Assembly: GCA_003604995.1 (NCBI GenBank)
Contig: QZJD01000050.1
Span: forward strand, 1-32,945
DNA: 32,945 nucleotides
Direction of reading: 5' to 3'
Origin: Desulfobulbus sp.
Lineage (GTDB): Bacteria > Desulfobacterota > Desulfobulbia > Desulfobulbales > Desulfobulbaceae
Shown: one piece after another, positions 25,842 through 32,945 of the stretch
Numbering within the stretch: the stretch's first letter is position 1
Layout of the letters: each line of letters opens with the position of its first letter
Program-made: the position numbers and the translations under genes
Notes under the pieces: generated by a model
The model's database searches: none
What the model was told of the DNA's origin: nothing
What the model saw: the letters and a program-made list of their open reading frames with translations, nothing else

Positions 25842-27326
25842 TCAATAGTCTTCCGTTTCCCACATGGAGGATTCGAAGCGGATCACCTGGTTTCTGCCTT
25901 TTTCCTTGGCCTGATACAGTGCCACGTCGGCAAATTTGACCGCTTCCCAGAAGGCTGCCGTATCGCTGGGAAACTGGCTGATGCCGATGCTCAGGGTCTT
26001 GCGCAGCACGCCGCCCTCGATGCGGAACTGCTGATCCTCAACTTTCTTGCGTATTTTTTCGGCAACCTGCAAGGCTAATCCGTCAGGGTTGCAGTCCACC
26101 AAAAGGATGAGGAACTCTTCGCCGCCGTAGCGGATGACCAGATCCGAGGTCCTGACGGAATTCTGCAGGATGTGCGCAAGGGTTTTCAGGACCATGTCGC
26201 CGGCCTCATGGCCGTATTCGTCGTTGACTCGTTTGAAGAAATCCATGTCGCACATGAGAATGGCCATGCTGGATTCACGACGCTGGATACCGGATAGAAT
26301 CGGATTGATGTTTCCCTCAAGGAAACGTCGGTTGTACAGGCCGGTCAGTGTATCACGTACCGCCATCTGGTGGAGGTTCTGCGCCAGCCGCTTGGCATGG
26401 AGGACGGGAAGTGCCTCGTTCAGGTATTGCCGGGCCCGTCGCAGGCTGCTCTTAAAATGTTCTTCCCGTTCGGCGCTGTTGACATAGAGGAAGAGGAACT
26501 GGACCACGCCGAGGATTTGGCCGCCTACGATCATGGGAACACAGGAGTGGGTCATCACGTCAGGCAGGGGGAAGATGGGACAGATACCGGGATAGCCGCT
26601 GGAAGAAACAATATCTCCGGTCCGGACCGCCCGGCAGAGATAAGGGGTGCTCATTTGACAGATTTCTTCCTCAAAGTCCGGGGGCGAGGTGTACACCGCT
26701 TCGATGGAATCGTCTCCCTTGTTGACCTCCCAGATGACAAAGGTGTTCAGGCCCAACCGCTCCTTGAACACGTACGCCAGTCGTTTGTAGACATCAGTGG
26801 TCGTTTCGTCCCCTTCGATGATTCGCCGGAAACGCTGAATATTCTGGATATCATTGATTATCCCATTAACCTCGCGGGCAACCAGGCCGATTTCGTCGTC
26901 GGAGATGATCGGCACGGATTCCAGGACTTGACAGCTGAGGGACTCGCCGGTGCTGTTGCGCACGGCCCGCAGATTGTTGCTCATGTCTTGGAGCAGGCCG
27001 ACCATCATCCGTACGCAGAGAAAGCTGGTGATGATCAAAAAAACCATGATTGCTGCGACCAGAAAAGCACCATTCTGCAGGTACAGGTCAGCTGCATGGA
27101 TGGCCTCGCGGATCGTCGTTTCGGTCGGGCTGGCCTGGAGTTGCGCCAGCCTGATTTTGAGGGTGTTGACAAAATAGAGGTTGTGCAGGCCGACCAGGAT
27201 GAAACCGGCGAGAAAGCTCGTGAGGACCAGAACAAATTTGCCATACACGGAAAGATTGAGAAAGGGCTGCCACATGCGGAGCCACAGGGACGGCGGCTGC
27301 TGGGAATTGTGTTGTTCCGCTGTCAT
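25842..27326 (-). CDS. Membrane-bound HAMP-GAF-GGDEF diguanylate cyclase
   Basis: A 494-residue sensor enzyme that makes c-di-GMP from two GTP. Membrane helices at about 31-53 and 86-108 bracket a short periplasmic loop. A HAMP-like segment (109-165, with PIISDDEIGLVAREVN) and a GAF-like domain (about 175-310) follow. The catalytic domain has GGEEF at 401-405 and an inhibitory RxxD site RTSD at 392-395. The guanine-recognition Asp in GHEAGD (D377) is kept, so this is not a Hypr (cGAMP-making) variant. The GAF region has C223, C231, C249 and C262, suggesting redox or metal sensing. It lies 68 nt downstream of the peptide cassette on the same strand. Confidence 0.93.
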   Translation of the reverse strand: MTAEQHNSQQPPSLWLRMWQPFLNLSVYGKFVLVLTSFLAGFILVGLHNLYFVNTLKIRLAQLQASPTETTIREAIHAADLYLQNGAFLVAAIMVFLIITSFLCVRMMVGLLQDMSNNLRAVRNSTGESLSCQVLESVPIISDDEIGLVAREVNGIINDIQNIQRFRRIIEGDETTTDVYKRLAYVFKERLGLNTFVIWEVNKGDDSIEAVYTSPPDFEEEICQMSTPYLCRAVRTGDIVSSSGYPGICPIFPLPDVMTHSCVPMIVGGQILGVVQFLFLYVNSAEREEHFKSSLRRARQYLNEALPVLHAKRLAQNLHQMAVRDTLTGLYNRRFLEGNINPILSGIQRRESSMAILMCDMDFFKRVNDEYGHEAGDMVLKTLAHILQNSVRTSDLVIRYGGEEFLILLVDCNPDGLALQVAEKIRKKVEDQQFRIEGGVLRKTLSIGISQFPSDTAAFWEAVKFADVALYQAKEKGRNQVIRFESSMWETEDY

Positions 27327-27394: not shown

Positions 27395-29011
27395 TTATAC
27401 GGGAATCGAAGTGTTTTTTTGTCCGCCATGGGCCGGCGATCGGGCCGGATCCGGCAGTTGAGATACATCGATTATGAGTCGCCAGGGGGGGGTAATCTCC
27501 CAGAGTTTTTGTAAAGAATCGTATCGGCCAATGACCCGACCGTTGACCATGAGTTTGAGTTTAGACGGGAAATTACCCTGTTTGAATTCGTAAATTCGTG
27601 GTTGGAGGGAAGCCGGCAATAGGGCGTTCAGAAAACCGCTTTTCGCCAGAGCGTGATATATCTTATGCAGTGGCGCCCGGGCGAACTTGTACAGTTCGTT
27701 GGCGGCCCATGTCCTGTAAACAGAGCAGATGCCGGCTATACCTCCGGCGATTTCGCGGCGTTTTTCATATCGCCAGGCGGCGATTACCTGGCCGATGACA
27801 TCACGGGGTTGCAGGAGGAGGGGATCCTCAGGGCAATTGTTATCGCCCCGCGTCGCTATCCCATTTGCCGTAATCCGGACGACCCGGTGGATAACCTTTT
27901 GTCCGCCGGTAGCAGGCTGGTAATATATCACGTCTCCGGGGCGGATGGGTCTGTCATTATAGGGAACGACTTCCACGAGGTCCGGGTGACGGAAGGTCGG
28001 TTTCATGCTGGAGCCGGAATACGCTGCAACCAGAGTGCCCTGATCGAAGAGGCTCGGAGAGGGAGAGGCAGGTTGTTTGCCTTTCCGGATGGCGTTCGGG
28101 AGGGGTATAGGCTCTGGCCCTGAAAATTCCCTGATTTCCATCCCGTTCAGGGTTTCAGCAATCAGATTCCAAAAGGATCCGGTTAAACTGAGGCGGAGAG
28201 TGAAGGCAGGGATGGCGCGTACAAGTTGTTCAGCTGCGGCAAGCTGTTTATGATGCAGTAATCGAGCCTGATCATCCGGGAGGCCATGGGGCATCAAAAA
28301 GGAGACCTGCTGAACGGTTTCTTTCAGAAAAGCCATCGCAGAAGCGACAGGCAATGGCGTGATCTGGTCCTCCCGTCCACGAGCGAGAAAGAAAATGGCT
28401 TTTAGGGGGAGCCCGTTCCGCACATCCCATTTGCCGCCCGGCCCCGGCTTGCCGTCAGGGTCACGGAAGAAACGGCTCCAGGTAGGCCATGGATGGGCCA
28501 TAAAACCTCCGGATCGACAGTAATCCACGAAAGATGTGTCATCACACAGTGACCTCCATGGCGGAGGGAGCCGATTGCTGGCAGTAGTCTTGCCTACGGT
28601 GCCCGGACCGGCCAGGATAACGCCGTACTGGCGAGGGCCTGGTGCGGAAATAAGGGCTCCGTGGATCAGGAGCGCTCCCCGCGACAACTCTGCCCGGGCA
28701 AGGGCCTGGGTGATCACCGACATACCGACGACCAGCTTGTCGTGATCTGCAAGGGGAGGGAGAAGGCAGAAAACAGCTCCGATATCGTCACAGTGTATTC
28801 GCGGTTCGGGTACGCCGGGGTCAACAAAGACCCATAACTCTCGCCTCTGTTTGAGTGGCTCTGATGTTATCGGGCGGCATGAGAGGGCAAGGGACATGGC
28901 GTCCGCAAGCATGGTGACAACGCGGGCCGCGTCCGCATTGCCGGCATGAATTTGCCAATTGTGCTCGGTAAGGGGCAGGCTTACAAAGGCAAGGGTGGAA
29001 GAACAGGGCAT
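27395..29011 (-). CDS. Fusion of HPr-kinase-like domain (ScmC-like) and S26 signal-peptidase-like domain
   Basis: A 538-residue protein, last gene of the cassette. GAGG lies 7 nt before the ATG at 29011. The N-terminal half (about 1-290) resembles HPr-kinase-related cassette proteins: GALLIHGALIS (112-122), a P-loop LAGPGTVGKTTAS (133-145; G140, K141, T142), and LCDDTSFVD (155-163) like the Mg-binding LxDD strand. The second half has the S26 signature: YSGSSMKPTFRHPDLVEV with probable nucleophile S335, RPGDVIYYQP, KVIHRVVRI with H375 as candidate general base (the SipW/SEC11-type Ser/His arrangement), and TRGDNNCPEDP (D390). Residues about 420-520 are an extra domain that I do not recognise. 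No Sec signal or clear membrane helix is visible. The likely role, by inference, is to process or activate the precursor peptide encoded just upstream. Confidence 0.8.
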   Translation of the reverse strand: MPCSSTLAFVSLPLTEHNWQIHAGNADAARVVTMLADAMSLALSCRPITSEPLKQRRELWVFVDPGVPEPRIHCDDIGAVFCLLPPLADHDKLVVGMSVITQALARAELSRGALLIHGALISAPGPRQYGVILAGPGTVGKTTASNRLPPPWRSLCDDTSFVDYCRSGGFMAHPWPTWSRFFRDPDGKPGPGGKWDVRNGLPLKAIFFLARGREDQITPLPVASAMAFLKETVQQVSFLMPHGLPDDQARLLHHKQLAAAEQLVRAIPAFTLRLSLTGSFWNLIAETLNGMEIREFSGPEPIPLPNAIRKGKQPASPSPSLFDQGTLVAAYSGSSMKPTFRHPDLVEVVPYNDRPIRPGDVIYYQPATGGQKVIHRVVRITANGIATRGDNNCPEDPLLLQPRDVIGQVIAAWRYEKRREIAGGIAGICSVYRTWAANELYKFARAPLHKIYHALAKSGFLNALLPASLQPRIYEFKQGNFPSKLKLMVNGRVIGRYDSLQKLWEITPPWRLIIDVSQLPDPARSPAHGGQKNTSIPV

Positions 29012-29079: not shown

Positions 29080-29307
29080 TTATTTTGGTGTCGGCGCCTG
29101 TAAGGGGCCGCTTCGAGCGCCATTGCCGGTTGGATCACAAACGCCTTGGCTGGCACCGTTGCCGGTTGGTCGGCAACTGCCGGATGTAGGAGCGCTCCCC
29201 CCGGGACAATTCGCGCCGGCGCCGGTGGAAACGCTGTCCAGGCGAATGACCTGCGGGGCAGTATACGCCGGACGAGTAACGTCCTTTTTGTTGTTGCTGC
29301 TGCTCAT
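29080..29307 (-). CDS. Candidate RiPP precursor peptide with repeated CxPTGNGA units
   Basis: 75 residues, with a strong GGAGG six nt before the ATG. The first ~28 residues (Lys/Asn/Ser-rich, then YTAPQVIRLDS) look like a recognition leader for PqqD-type chaperones. The rest is a core of Gly, Pro, Thr, Ser, Asn with only three Cys (C34, C45, C57). The units C45-RPTGNGASQG and C57-DPTGNGARSG repeat every 12 residues, and C34-PGGSAPTSGS is a weaker first unit. The repeats are also visible in the DNA (GCCGTTGCCGGTTGG-like segments). Its position between the radical SAM genes and the kinase/protease fusion, and its composition, support a modification substrate. The modification itself is unknown. 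Confidence 0.82.
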   Translation of the reverse strand: MSSSNNKKDVTRPAYTAPQVIRLDSVSTGAGANCPGGSAPTSGSCRPTGNGASQGVCDPTGNGARSGPLQAPTPK

Positions 29308-29431: not shown

Positions 29432-30625
29432 TTAAGGGGACATGACTGTCGCTCCGGAAAGCATTCTCTTTTTCCTGGTTGCCGGAAAGAGGCCCTGTCG
29501 GCATGCCGAGTCGCATAGGGGATCCGGCCAGACCAGTTGTTTGCCATTGATGAAATTCTGAGCCACGCAACCGGTTCGACAGCGCCTGGCCAGGGTGCAT
29601 TCCCGGCAGAGGGCGGGATAGCTGTCAACGTCATTCAATACTCGACGCAGTTTGTCGAGGACCGGATGATCAAGCCATACTGTGCGGATGGAATCCTTTC
29701 CCAATCGCCCGTAAACCAGTTCCGGGACATTTCGGCCGATCCCGCACATGGCGATTTCGCCGCTTCCCAGAATTCCGAGGATGCCCAGGACTCCACAATC
29801 CCCGGTTGCCCCTTGCTGTCGCATAATCTCGCTGATGGGCATCAGGGCGAGGGGGCTGTTGAGGATGAGGTCAGGAGCTGTCCCCTCGCTTCGAAGAAGC
29901 GGGCTCAGTTCTTTGAAAATGTATTGATCCAGGCTGAGTCGATCGGCAAAGTCGAGGGTCTCGCCGCGCTGGTTCATGCCGGCCCCACGGCCACAGCTGG
30001 TCACCGGGTTCAGCTTGACCGATGCTGCACCATGTCTTTCCGCCAGGCGTACCACGTCTTCAATTTCGTTGCTGTTGCCGCGATGGACGGACATGATTAC
30101 TTGGACATTTTCATAACCCGCGGCGACCAAGTGGTCAAGACCTTGCAGCGTCGCAAGAAAAGCACCCTTTGTCCCACGGAAGGCATCATGCTTGGATTCA
30201 ACAGCACTATCGATACTCACCGAGACAAAGGTCATGCTGGTTTCATTTTTCAGGAAAAGGGCCAACTCAGCGGTGAGCAAGGTGCCGTTGGTTTCCATGA
30301 GCAGGTCCATTTTTTCATTGGTCGCCATGGCACAAATCTCACGGAAACGAGGATGGAGCAGGGGTTCGCCGCCAGTGAGTTTGATGGTGGTCAGACCCAT
30401 CGGTTTTGCTTCGGTAATAGCCCCCCGCAATGCCTCGACATCAATTATATCACCGGGGTCCGGCTGTCCGCTGGTGAAGCGGGGCGAGATCCAGCAGTGA
30501 CGGCAGGACAGGTTGCAACTGTTTGAGAGATAGAGGTAAAAGGAGCGCAGTGGCGGCACGCCTTCCGGTAAATCCAGAGATTCGCGGTCATTGTGCGGTG
30601 GTTCTTTATACTCACAGGCGGTCAT
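29432..30625 (-). CDS. Radical SAM/SPASM peptide maturase (ScmF/ScmE-like), second of two
   Basis: A 397-residue enzyme. I start it at ATG 30625 (MTACEYKEPPHND), with GGGAGA upstream, overlapping the preceding maturase gene by 14 nt. The upstream in-frame ATG at 30682 lies inside that gene. The radical SAM cluster ligands are C37, C41 and C44 (CNLSCRHC), and the SAM-binding GGEP is at 85-88. The C-terminal SPASM region has CGVLGILGILGSGEIAMC, then CRECTLARRCRTGC, then a final Cys pair in LCDSAC, enough to bind two auxiliary Fe-S clusters. Such enzymes install C-C, C-S or other bonds in precursor peptides delivered by PqqD domains. The target is likely the 75-residue peptide encoded next. Confidence 0.9.
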   Translation of the reverse strand: MTACEYKEPPHNDRESLDLPEGVPPLRSFYLYLSNSCNLSCRHCWISPRFTSGQPDPGDIIDVEALRGAITEAKPMGLTTIKLTGGEPLLHPRFREICAMATNEKMDLLMETNGTLLTAELALFLKNETSMTFVSVSIDSAVESKHDAFRGTKGAFLATLQGLDHLVAAGYENVQVIMSVHRGNSNEIEDVVRLAERHGAASVKLNPVTSCGRGAGMNQRGETLDFADRLSLDQYIFKELSPLLRSEGTAPDLILNSPLALMPISEIMRQQGATGDCGVLGILGILGSGEIAMCGIGRNVPELVYGRLGKDSIRTVWLDHPVLDKLRRVLNDVDSYPALCRECTLARRCRTGCVAQNFINGKQLVWPDPLCDSACRQGLFPATRKKRMLSGATVMSP

Positions 30626-31763
30626 GATATTTCTCCCTGTGCTGCCGGTACAGACGGTAACATACGTCCGGGTCAGCCGCATCCAGTTTTCCGAATTTTG
30701 CCATTACGGCGGCCGGGCAACCGCCGGCGCAAAGCCCAGTGTAGGCGCATTCTCGGCAGTTTGCCAGTGAGCTCAGTGGTATCCCGGTGAGATTGCGGAC
30801 AGAATTAATTGCGGAATGATGCAGCCACGCTTTCTGCAGGGGATCGATGCCGATCTTACCCATGATCATTGACGGCAAGAGATTACAGGGAACCATGGTC
30901 CCGTCATGCAAGACGGCCATCTTGCTGAATACGCCTCCGCAGGAACTCAGGGTTCCGCGTCCGGACATTTGGATTTCGCCACGGGCCAGCCGATCATCCA
31001 GATCGGCAAAATGATTCGCCAGGGCCAGCGGGCCGGCCGTGGCACTGATGCGATTATCGTAGCGTCTGTTCAGCTTGGCAAGGGTTGAGCTGGCCAGCCG
31101 GCGTTCTTCCTCGGTTATGAGCACGTCCTGACCTGTACAGCGGGCTGTGCCCATCTGCTCGGCCTCGTTGGTGCTGAACCCTGGGAGGCCCAGGTCATCG
31201 AGGAGGAGTTTGGCAATATTTTCAAGGTCATGCACGTTGTGGTGATTGACGGTTACCCGTACCGTCACCGGAATCCCTGCATCCCGGAGCAGGAGCAAGC
31301 CGCGCATGGCACGGCCGAAACTGTTCGGAGGCCTGCTTTTGTTATGGACATCGGCATTTGAGCCATCTATGGAAACCTGGATTGAATCGAGGCGAAGACG
31401 ACGCTTGCTGATGGACAAAGCGACAATAGTCTTCTCGGTGATCAGCGTGCCATTGGTCAGCAGACTGTAGCGCATTCTGTTTTCGATAATGGCGTCTATC
31501 AGTTCAAACAGATCGGGCCTGGTAAACACTTCGCCGCCGCTGAGGGTGACCCGCTGGACAGCGAGTTCTCCTAATTCCGCAAAAAAAATCAGCCAGCGAT
31601 CCGTGGGCAGGTCGGACAACGAAACCATTTCATTGTTATAATAACAGTAACGGCAGCGAAGGTTGCACCTTCCGGTAAGTGAAATATCAACACTTTGCGG
31701 GCGAGATACGGTTCTCCGCGGCTGAAGAATTGGGTCAGACATTGCCCTGTGATCAGTTGCCAT
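30612..31763 (-). CDS. Radical SAM/SPASM peptide maturase, first of two
   Basis: A 383-residue enzyme with ligands C33, C37 and C40 (CNLRCRYC) and SAM-binding GGEV at 76-79. Its SPASM region has CGGVFSKMAVLHDGTMVPC, then CRECAYTGLCAGGC, then a final Cys (DVCYRL). The start at ATG 31763 overlaps the preceding PqqD-like gene by 11 nt, indicating translational coupling. ATG 31742 (MSDPILQPRR) is an alternative. It differs clearly from the second maturase outside the motifs, so the two probably carry out different steps on the same substrate. Confidence 0.9.
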   Translation of the reverse strand: MATDHRAMSDPILQPRRTVSRPQSVDISLTGRCNLRCRYCYYNNEMVSLSDLPTDRWLIFFAELGELAVQRVTLSGGEVFTRPDLFELIDAIIENRMRYSLLTNGTLITEKTIVALSISKRRLRLDSIQVSIDGSNADVHNKSRPPNSFGRAMRGLLLLRDAGIPVTVRVTVNHHNVHDLENIAKLLLDDLGLPGFSTNEAEQMGTARCTGQDVLITEEERRLASSTLAKLNRRYDNRISATAGPLALANHFADLDDRLARGEIQMSGRGTLSSCGGVFSKMAVLHDGTMVPCNLLPSMIMGKIGIDPLQKAWLHHSAINSVRNLTGIPLSSLANCRECAYTGLCAGGCPAAVMAKFGKLDAADPDVCYRLYRQHREKYHDRL

Positions 31764-32037
31764 CGAATATTTCCAGCAGGAAATCCGGTGCCAGTGATTC
31801 AATAAAAAGTTTTGTATCCGCCGATGCCTGCTCTATAGATACATCCCTGTAATTCCCGACCAGATATGCAATAATCTCGTCTGCGGTACGGGAGGTTGAG
31901 AGAAAAAGCCAGAGTTCGAGGCCAGTCAGGTTGACCACCGATGTCTTGTCCGTGTCCGGATTGTATAATACCGCACCGTCCTCTTCAATTCCGCAAGAGA
32001 CGACCGGATTTGCCTGATAACGCTTGGGTAGGTTCAT
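31753..32037 (-). CDS. PqqD-like peptide-binding chaperone (second in order)
   Basis: 94 residues. The start is ATG 32037 (MNLPKRYQANPVV), with AAAGG close upstream. The in-frame ATG at 32118 would overlap the other PqqD gene and lacks support. NPVVSCGIEEDGAVLYNPDTDKTSVVNLTGLELWLFL and TADEIIAYLVGNY have the strand-turn-helix layout of the PqqD/RRE domain, which binds leader peptides and presents them to radical SAM maturases. It overlaps the first maturase gene by 11 nt, so the two proteins are probably partners. Confidence 0.85.
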   Translation of the reverse strand: MNLPKRYQANPVVSCGIEEDGAVLYNPDTDKTSVVNLTGLELWLFLSTSRTADEIIAYLVGNYRDVSIEQASADTKLFIESLAPDFLLEIFDGN

Positions 32038-32080
32038 GAAACCTTTTGTTGTTCCGTATGATGGAGGTGAATATGCGCAT

Positions 32081-32374
32081 TCATCGCCGGTCGTTCCATT
32101 CGAAACCAATAAAACCATCGAGAGCCAGCAGGTTCAGCAGGTCAAAAACATCATTTGCCACCGTATCAGGAACATCGTGAAATTGTTCGGTTACTTGCGC
32201 GATGATATCCTGAATACTGTTTTTACCATCAGCCTTTTCCCATATTAGCACGGCGGTTCTGTTGGTCAAGGCCAAGGCAGTAGCGTTGTCAGCGTTCACC
32301 AGTACCATTTCGCCTTCAATAATTTTCCGGGCAAGGACAGACGGGTTATGCAGGGGCTTTGCTGATAATTCCAT
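32081..32374 (-). CDS. PqqD-like peptide-binding chaperone (first in order)
   Basis: 97 residues with a textbook PqqD pattern: EGEMVLVNADNATALALTNRTAVLIWEKADGKNSIQDIIAQV, then VANDVFDLLNLLALDGFIG. It should bind the precursor leader (RRE function). It is the first gene of the cassette, 43 nt before the second PqqD-like gene. The ribosome site is poor. Having two different PqqD proteins and two maturases suggests one chaperone per maturase, which is an inference. Confidence 0.88.
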   Translation of the reverse strand: MELSAKPLHNPSVLARKIIEGEMVLVNADNATALALTNRTAVLIWEKADGKNSIQDIIAQVTEQFHDVPDTVANDVFDLLNLLALDGFIGFEWNDRR

Positions 32375-32468: not shown

Positions 32469-32590
32469 GGTAAATGAGAAAGCAGTGAATTCGTAATGAG
32501 GAAAAATGAATATTGCAAATGATTGCAACTGACGGGCATCATAACAAAAAAACTCATACGGAAAAACGTAAGGGACTTTGGTATAAGAAT

Positions 32591-32706
32591 TCGGCGGCGA
32601 CCTACTCTCCCACCCAGTCACCCGTGCAGTACCATCGGCGCTGGAGAGATTGACTTCCGTGCTCGGCAATGAGAGCGGGTGGGGCCTCTCCGCAATGGTG
32701 ACGGAG
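32591..32706 (-). pseudogene. Diverged, probably non-functional 5S rRNA copy
   Basis: The 3' two thirds match the neighbouring 5S copy closely (GGGAGAGTAGGTCGCCGCCGA end). The conserved loop region reads CATTGCCGAGCACGG with an inserted base, where normal 5S, including the copy at 32860, has CATTCCGAACACGG. GAAGTTAAG has become GAAGTCAAT. The 5' end does not pair with the 3' strand of helix I (expected near TTCGGCGG). The 5' limit is approximate. It lies after the rRNA terminator. Confidence 0.75.
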
Positions 32707-32848: not shown

Positions 32849-32859
32849 GGTATAAGAAT

Positions 32860-32945
32860 TCGGCGGCGACCTACTCTCCCACACAGTCACCCGTGCAGTA
32901 CCATCGGCGCTGGAGAGCTTAACTTCCGTGTTCGGAATGGGAACG
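32860..32945 (-). rRNA. rrf: 5S ribosomal RNA (partial, cut by the window end)
   Basis: The 3' part of a normal 5S rRNA. It keeps the conserved CGTTCCCATTCCGAACACGG, GAAGTTAAGC, GCGCCGATGGTACTGC and GTGGGAGAGTAGGTCGCCGCC stretches (minus strand). The 5' end lies outside the window. It is probably the last gene of an rRNA operon transcribed into the window. Confidence 0.95.

Follow-up and report, generated by a model that had tools for sequence, protein, structure and literature searches.

Why would one gene of a radical SAM peptide cassette encode a kinase-like domain and a signal-peptidase-like domain in the same chain? The gene lies on the minus strand of the window (the whole stretch of Desulfobulbus sp. 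DNA analysed here, 32,945 nt). It runs from an ATG at 29011 to a stop at 27395 with no internal stop and encodes 538 aa; a ribosome-binding-like GAGG precedes the ATG by 7 nt. The gene closes a compact cassette, after two PqqD/RRE genes, the ScmE-like and ScmF-like genes and the gene of a 75-aa precursor. The initial annotation, made from the sequence, had described one uninterrupted frame, and both this frame and the residues it named (P-loop, DD pair, S335, H375 and D390) are exact. The fused gene and its parts are:

27395-29011, minus strand: fused ScmC (HprK/PEPCK-like kinase), S26B peptidase and C-terminal domain, 538 aa
28142-29011, minus strand: ScmC/HprK-like kinase half, residues 1-290 (TIGR04249, HprK profile matches, AlphaFold2 model)
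28661-28663, minus strand: H117, invariant
28583-28609, minus strand: P-loop GPGTVGKTT, residues 135-143; G140, K141 and T143 invariant
28538-28543, minus strand: DD 157-158, HprK-type Mg/catalytic acid pair, invariant
28037-28141, minus strand: flexible linker between the halves, residues 291-325 (low pLDDT)
27779-28036, minus strand: S26B (Sec11/SipW-type) serine peptidase domain without membrane anchor, residues 326-411
28007-28009, minus strand: catalytic Ser335, invariant
27887-27889, minus strand: catalytic His375, invariant
27842-27844, minus strand: D390, likewise conserved
27824-27826, minus strand: probable catalytic Asp396 (conservation, Sec11 alignment, D93 of LppS)
27434-27778, minus strand: C-terminal domain, residues 412-526 (~115 aa), a long helix and about four strands

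The same kinase-peptidase fusion is found in three further genomes of the host's phylum (L043, L044 and L045) and in many other phyla; it is therefore neither due to chance nor to a frame or assembly artefact joining two genes, which we rejected. Methanospirillum stamsii, a cultured archaeon, bears it too. The two halves are recognised separately by NCBIfam models (TIGR04249 and TIGR02228).

For the first half, residues 90-286 match the NCBIfam ScmC model TIGR04249 with 127.1 bits for the whole protein and 129.2 for the half alone (curated cut-off, 125 bits), in agreement with the HprK-like half proposed initially. A profile of this half matches the HprK structures 1knx, 1ko7 and 1jb1 (E about 3e-4 to 1e-3), and 16 of 18 relatives match HprK-related kinase A. 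Across an 18-sequence set there is little or no variation in H117, G140, K141, T143, D157, D158, an HPxPT(W/F)S motif and a C-terminal FW, and the marks of the HprK fold, i.e. the P-loop, the downstream DD pair and the upstream His, are all present. HprK and PEPCK share one fold. The AlphaFold2 model (pLDDT 88.8, pTM 0.82, mostly above 90 in the kinase half) gives PEPCK as the top structural matches by Foldseek when submitted at full length; PEPCK dominates this search and leaves the S26 half out of view. A chance resemblance to HprK was rejected on the profile matches, the fold and the HprK-related kinase A matches. The ScmC half has no match to Pfam Hpr_kinase_C (PF07475), nor can a counterpart of HprK's C-terminal, HPr-binding part be made out in it. 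We read ScmC as a remote relative of HprK, and presumably as a kinase.

For the second half, residues 332-410 match the archaeal signal peptidase model TIGR02228 at 51.8 bits, at the edge of its cut-off (51.85), and the relative L031 scores 71. Its profile matches SEC11C (E=9e-14), and a separate model of the peptidase and C-terminal domain (S26-CT; pLDDT 91) has SEC11C and SEC11A as best PDB matches by Foldseek, so that the signal-peptidase-like assignment holds by profile and by fold; the support for the Ser/His geometry is this fold match only. The Ser-His-Asp residues of S26B boxes B, D and E are present, and S335, M336, P338, H375, R376, G389-D390 and D396 are invariant in a 15-sequence set. 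Of the triad S335/H375/D390 proposed initially, the Ser and the His are retained, but the catalytic Asp is most likely D396, since this residue lines up with the second Asp in the Sec11 motif GDNNxxxD and would be equivalent to D93 of LppS, the SipW-like peptidase of the LPP pathway, which requires S29, H68 and D93 (PMC13381572).

The peptidase part contains no hydrophobic 19-mer that could anchor it in a membrane (the 19-residue hydropathy maximum of the whole window protein is 0.95). Hydropathy reveals hardly any candidate anchor among the relatives, and some stand-alone S26 copies begin only a few residues ahead of the catalytic motif. The C-terminal domain, unassigned in the initial annotation, has no Pfam family and no PDB match among the Foldseek hits listed, and the idea that it is a separate known family was rejected on these grounds. 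It is a regular part of the peptidase, because in the surveyed family it always follows the S26 domain, including in the cassette's stand-alone S26 genes.

The genes upstream of the fusion confirm that it belongs to a radical SAM peptide cassette:

29080-29307, minus strand: ScmA-like precursor, 75 aa (leader Y15xxP18....L23, GxG at 29-31, Cys 34, Ser38, Cys repeats)
29212-29223, minus strand: predicted leader cleavage region, precursor G29-A32 (conserved small residues and analogy with LPP)
29432-30682, minus strand: ScmF-like radical SAM/SPASM enzyme (TIGR04251, 306 bits; cut-off 400)
30612-31802, minus strand: ScmE-like radical SAM/SPASM enzyme (TIGR04250, 389.8 bits; cut-off 400)
31753-32118, minus strand: second PqqD/RRE protein (PF05402, 34.8 bits, over cut-off)
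32081-32374, minus strand: first PqqD/RRE (ScmD-like) protein (PF05402, 42.4 bits)

The true starts are probably the ATGs at 30625 (ScmF-like) and 31763 (ScmE-like), and that at 32037 is the more likely one for the second PqqD/RRE gene. By these matches the cassette is of the SynChlorMet (Scm) type described by NCBIfam models (ScmA TIGR04252, ScmC TIGR04249, ScmD TIGR04248, ScmE TIGR04250, ScmF TIGR04251), with ScmC, ScmE-like, ScmF-like and PqqD-like proteins and a Cys-repeat precursor encoded together. We call it an Scm-like or variant RiPP cassette because ScmE and ScmF score below the curated cut-offs, although TIGR04250 and TIGR04251 are still their best-matching NCBIfam models. The first and second PqqDs likewise reach 38 and 24 bits with the ScmD model (cut-off 100), while both pass Pfam PqqD. 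The cassette differs further from the SynChlorMet set by having two PqqDs instead of one and an ScmC fused to an S26B peptidase; the S26 genes of Scm cassettes match general signal peptidase models only. No exporter gene is among the ORFs listed beside the cassette within the window. Two 5S rRNA genes lie directly upstream of it (32589-32706 and 32858-32945, minus strand, one of them cut by the contig end), and a GAF/GGDEF diguanylate cyclase gene (25842-27326, minus strand) lies immediately downstream of the fused gene.

ScmC was surveyed in 395 genomes of the same phylum and then in 84,980 species genomes. It exceeds the cut-off in 18 of the 395, and in none of the sampled members of the host's family or order: its distribution is patchy. 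The larger scan gave 80 further loci in many bacterial phyla and in methanogenic archaea, some on contigs already encountered, and 94 ScmC copies were kept once duplicate contigs were removed. The kinase-to-peptidase fusion seen in the window accounts for 14 of these copies and the reverse, peptidase-to-kinase fusion for 11. For 44 the locus contains S26 as a gene of its own, again with this C-terminal domain, and no S26 gene is seen near the other 25, many of which are at contig ends. The fusion is not peculiar to this locus. A run-on of ScmF and S26 (L061:4003-5808) was left out of the fusion count, being probably a frameshift in a MAG assembly.

In a quick maximum-likelihood tree of ScmC (weak supports; copies without a visible S26 gene left out) the kinase-to-peptidase order amounts to one change. 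The reverse order falls in a different part of the tree and takes three changes or more, possibly a single gain and two losses. Wherever upstream sequence is available, a kinase-to-peptidase locus carries at least two PqqDs (counted within 1.5 kb; the second PqqD of L043 is just beyond and was seen in a separate inspection). A single PqqD accompanies each of the 8 reverse fusions counted and 26 of 29 separate copies; among the three exceptions, L065 and L098 belong to the fused clade and are truncated. Other modules are joined as well: the S26-CT peptidase to NTP_transf_5 in an Aminicenantes MAG (L109:9117-11171) and a Lentisphaerae MAG (L126:8459-10525), and PqqD/RRE to the ScmC kinase in L092:7554-8864, L093:1081-2418 and L116:2514-4247. 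Of 99 Scm loci (a number including some duplicate contigs), 48 carry NTP_transf_5, the type of nucleotidyltransferase that LPP and paeninodin-like clusters contain; its model PF14907 has no match in the host genome, which is 74% complete. A dedicated exporter was rejected, an ABC-ATPase motif pair being seen in just 2 of 42 well-flanked loci. The parts of the cassette and their association are well established.

Most of these parts have counterparts in the LPP pathway of Paenibacillus alginolyticus (LppA/B/K/S/N; Popov et al. 2026, PMC13381572). There an RRE holds a YxxPxV leader, the HprK-like kinase LppK phosphorylates Ser3 of the core, and LppS depends on the RRE for removing the leader and, in vivo, hardly does so when the kinase is missing (PMC13381572). 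Scm cassettes, that of the window included, share with it the RRE, the HprK-like kinase, the SipW-like S26 leader peptidase and the YxxPxV leader and, in many loci, an NTP transferase partner; judging by the names, NTP_transf_5 is presumably the family of the LPP paper's transferase. Kinase and S26 peptidase are a standing pair in both. In contrast to LPP, Scm cassettes have two radical SAM/SPASM enzymes and a Cys-Gly repeat core, most of them have no linked exporter (LPP has an MsbA-like one), and in some lineages their kinase and peptidase are fused, while the LPP enzymes described are separate and mostly from Bacillota. By analogy with this close precedent, we regard the system as the equivalent of LPP among radical SAM pathways, its kinase and peptidase being joined in a single chain. 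In the paeninodin-type lasso pathways, too, an HprK-related kinase acts on a RiPP precursor whose leader has Y/WxxP, but there the partners are a B2 cysteine peptidase and a cyclase, with no radical SAM enzyme. Sec11/SipW peptidases (S26B) share the Ser-His-Asp motif set and the fold, whereas the window peptidase is soluble, carries an extra C-terminal domain and is fused to a kinase.

A precursor with a conserved leader is found beside most ScmC genes. A leader profile built from 14 seeds, the window precursor among them (it matches at 37.6 bits), retrieved 70 candidates with Y/WxxP. The Tyr is present in 64 of 70 and a Leu at Y+8 in 63; the Pro was part of the search pattern and its conservation is not independent. 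The family consensus is YExPxVVxLGxxAKGxGxC, and the window precursor reads YTAPQVIRLDSVSTGAGANC. It has no NCBIfam match (ScmA TIGR04252), its relatives reaching 23-29 of the 35 bits required, and the LPP precursor motif YxxPxVLxHQxIxFETxxS is absent from it. Gly or another small residue occupies Y+14 in 88% and Y+16 in 94% of 69 precursors. The first Cys is at Y+18/19 in 51 of 70 and is followed by C-x-x-G repeats spaced by 10-12 residues. A Ser at C+4 is found in 43 of 70 first repeats (about 61%; S38 in the window) against 31 of 268 later ones (Fisher p=1e-16, indicative only as the sequences are related). LPP cleavage falls at Y+15, as counted here from the residue numbers (PMC13381572), a position within the Scm GxG, and in Sec11 small pockets accommodate Ala at P3 and P1 (PMC13385932). 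The GxG would fit this small-x-small rule, and we infer from the pattern and from the analogy with LPP and Sec11 that the leader is cut there.

We lean towards the view that the fused protein is a two-headed maturation enzyme of an Scm-type RiPP cassette, phosphorylating the core and trimming the leader. The parts, their conservation, the two fusion orders, the repeated adjacency and the precursor family are read from the sequences; the activities, the sites and the order of steps are proposed by analogy. The PqqD/RRE proteins would bind the YxxPxVxxL leader of the ScmA-like precursor, and ScmE and ScmF would modify the Cys-Gly repeat core. The ScmC half would phosphorylate a core Ser, with S38 at C+4 of the first repeat as best candidate, and the soluble S26B half (S335/H375/D396) would remove the leader at GxG, just before the first Cys. 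The fusion would keep both activities on the same RRE-presented substrate, and leader removal would follow phosphorylation and probably depend on it. Among these roles, leader removal by the peptidase half is the one we consider probable, and phosphorylation of the precursor by ScmC is reasonably likely. That phosphorylation gates cleavage we suggest only tentatively; the coupling of the two steps by fusion, raised in the initial annotation, has the LPP system as its biochemical precedent. The catalytic residues of both halves, invariant across phyla, speak for the two-headed enzyme, and the opposite fusion orders together with the separate genes of the same locus suggest a task shared by kinase and peptidase. 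The RRE-kinase fusions, the precursor beside most ScmC genes, the enrichment of Ser at C+4 of the first repeat, the LPP precedent and the frequent NTP_transf_5 also count in favour of this enzyme. Against it stand the absence of NTP_transf_5 from the 74%-complete host genome, a first-repeat Ser in only about 61% of precursors, the remoteness of ScmC from HprK and the Scm loci with no S26 gene nearby.

Could the ScmC half rather be a P-loop ATPase or adaptor that helps in handing the precursor over to the peptidase or the radical SAM enzymes? Its similarity to HprK is only remote outside the P-loop region, the PF07475 match and a recognisable HPr-binding part are lacking, and the PEPCK-like fold that it matches has more than one activity. 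This seems unlikely in view of the invariant HprK-type DD pair and His, the HprK-related kinase A matches, the HprK-like kinase acting on the core peptide in a homologous pathway (PMC13381572) and the co-occurrence of NTP_transf_5, typical of phosphorylated lasso and LPP clusters. It is also less than likely, to a smaller degree, that the two domains are fused for co-expression or stoichiometry only and act on the precursor independently, in any order, a gating-free variant whose probability overlaps that of the two-headed enzyme. In most relatives the two genes are neighbours without being joined, and physical linkage is therefore not required; but fusion arose in both orders, RRE-kinase fusions exist as well, and LppS cuts poorly without its kinase (PMC13381572).

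The kinship with the Sec11/SipW family might instead point to a secretory signal peptidase, processing an exported peptide at the membrane rather than a leader in the cytosol. We hold this to be very improbable: the window protein has no transmembrane segment and its relatives hardly any candidate, some stand-alone copies start too close to the catalytic motif to leave more than a few residues before it, the domain is fused to a cytosolic-type kinase, ABC-ATPase-like ORFs are rare in the loci (2 of 42), the precursor leader is not a signal peptide, and the host has its own type I signal peptidase. Least credible is that the protein takes the place of an HPr kinase in the host. An HPr-like protein is encoded in the genome (G000:C11:6492-6695; 54.7 bits), where no canonical HprK was detected by PF07475; being 74% complete, however, the genome may miss a true HprK. 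Moreover, ScmC tracks precursor, RRE and radical SAM genes in many phyla including methanogens, and the cassette contains no PTS genes.

The preferred two-headed enzyme extends to a more speculative proposal, which we consider possible though doubtful: a single-chain kinase-peptidase would gate leader removal on phosphorylation of the Ser of the first Cys repeat within a radical SAM pathway. It would define a class of phosphorylated, radical-SAM-modified RiPPs common to bacteria and methanogenic archaea, the order of steps being imposed through varied fusions of RRE, kinase, peptidase and nucleotidyltransferase modules. The Scm cassette was known from its NCBIfam models, and the literature searched (most subscription papers being outside the search) yielded no paper on its product or enzymes under SynChlorMet, TIGR04249 or ScmC, nor anything on HPr kinase with PqqD and radical SAM. 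The survey adds to it a soluble S26B peptidase with its own C-terminal domain, putatively the leader peptidase, and the shared parts link it to the LPP pathway. That fusion occurs in two opposite orders is good evidence of a substrate shared by kinase and peptidase. The fusion offers a one-gene reagent for asking whether phosphorylation gates leader removal, the precursor alignment names concrete residues for mutation, and M. stamsii is a tractable source.

Several loci depart from the usual arrangement. L063:6240-8777, L066:709-2124 and L082:4223-6639 contain precursor(s) and ScmC, but neither a radical SAM nor an S26 gene within the stretch examined. Some 50 kb from L063 its contig bears the complete cassette L106, which suggests satellite precursor-kinase pairs. 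Since no radical SAM gene is near, these loci argue that ScmC acts on the precursor itself; and several Scm loci without a nearby S26 gene imply that the two activities can exist apart or be provided in trans. In L119:1498-12272 three ScmC copies and several divergent precursors stand beside one ScmE/ScmF/S26 set, and in L099:11378-13465 a radical SAM domain shares one frame of 696 aa with a weak ScmC-like match (46 bits).
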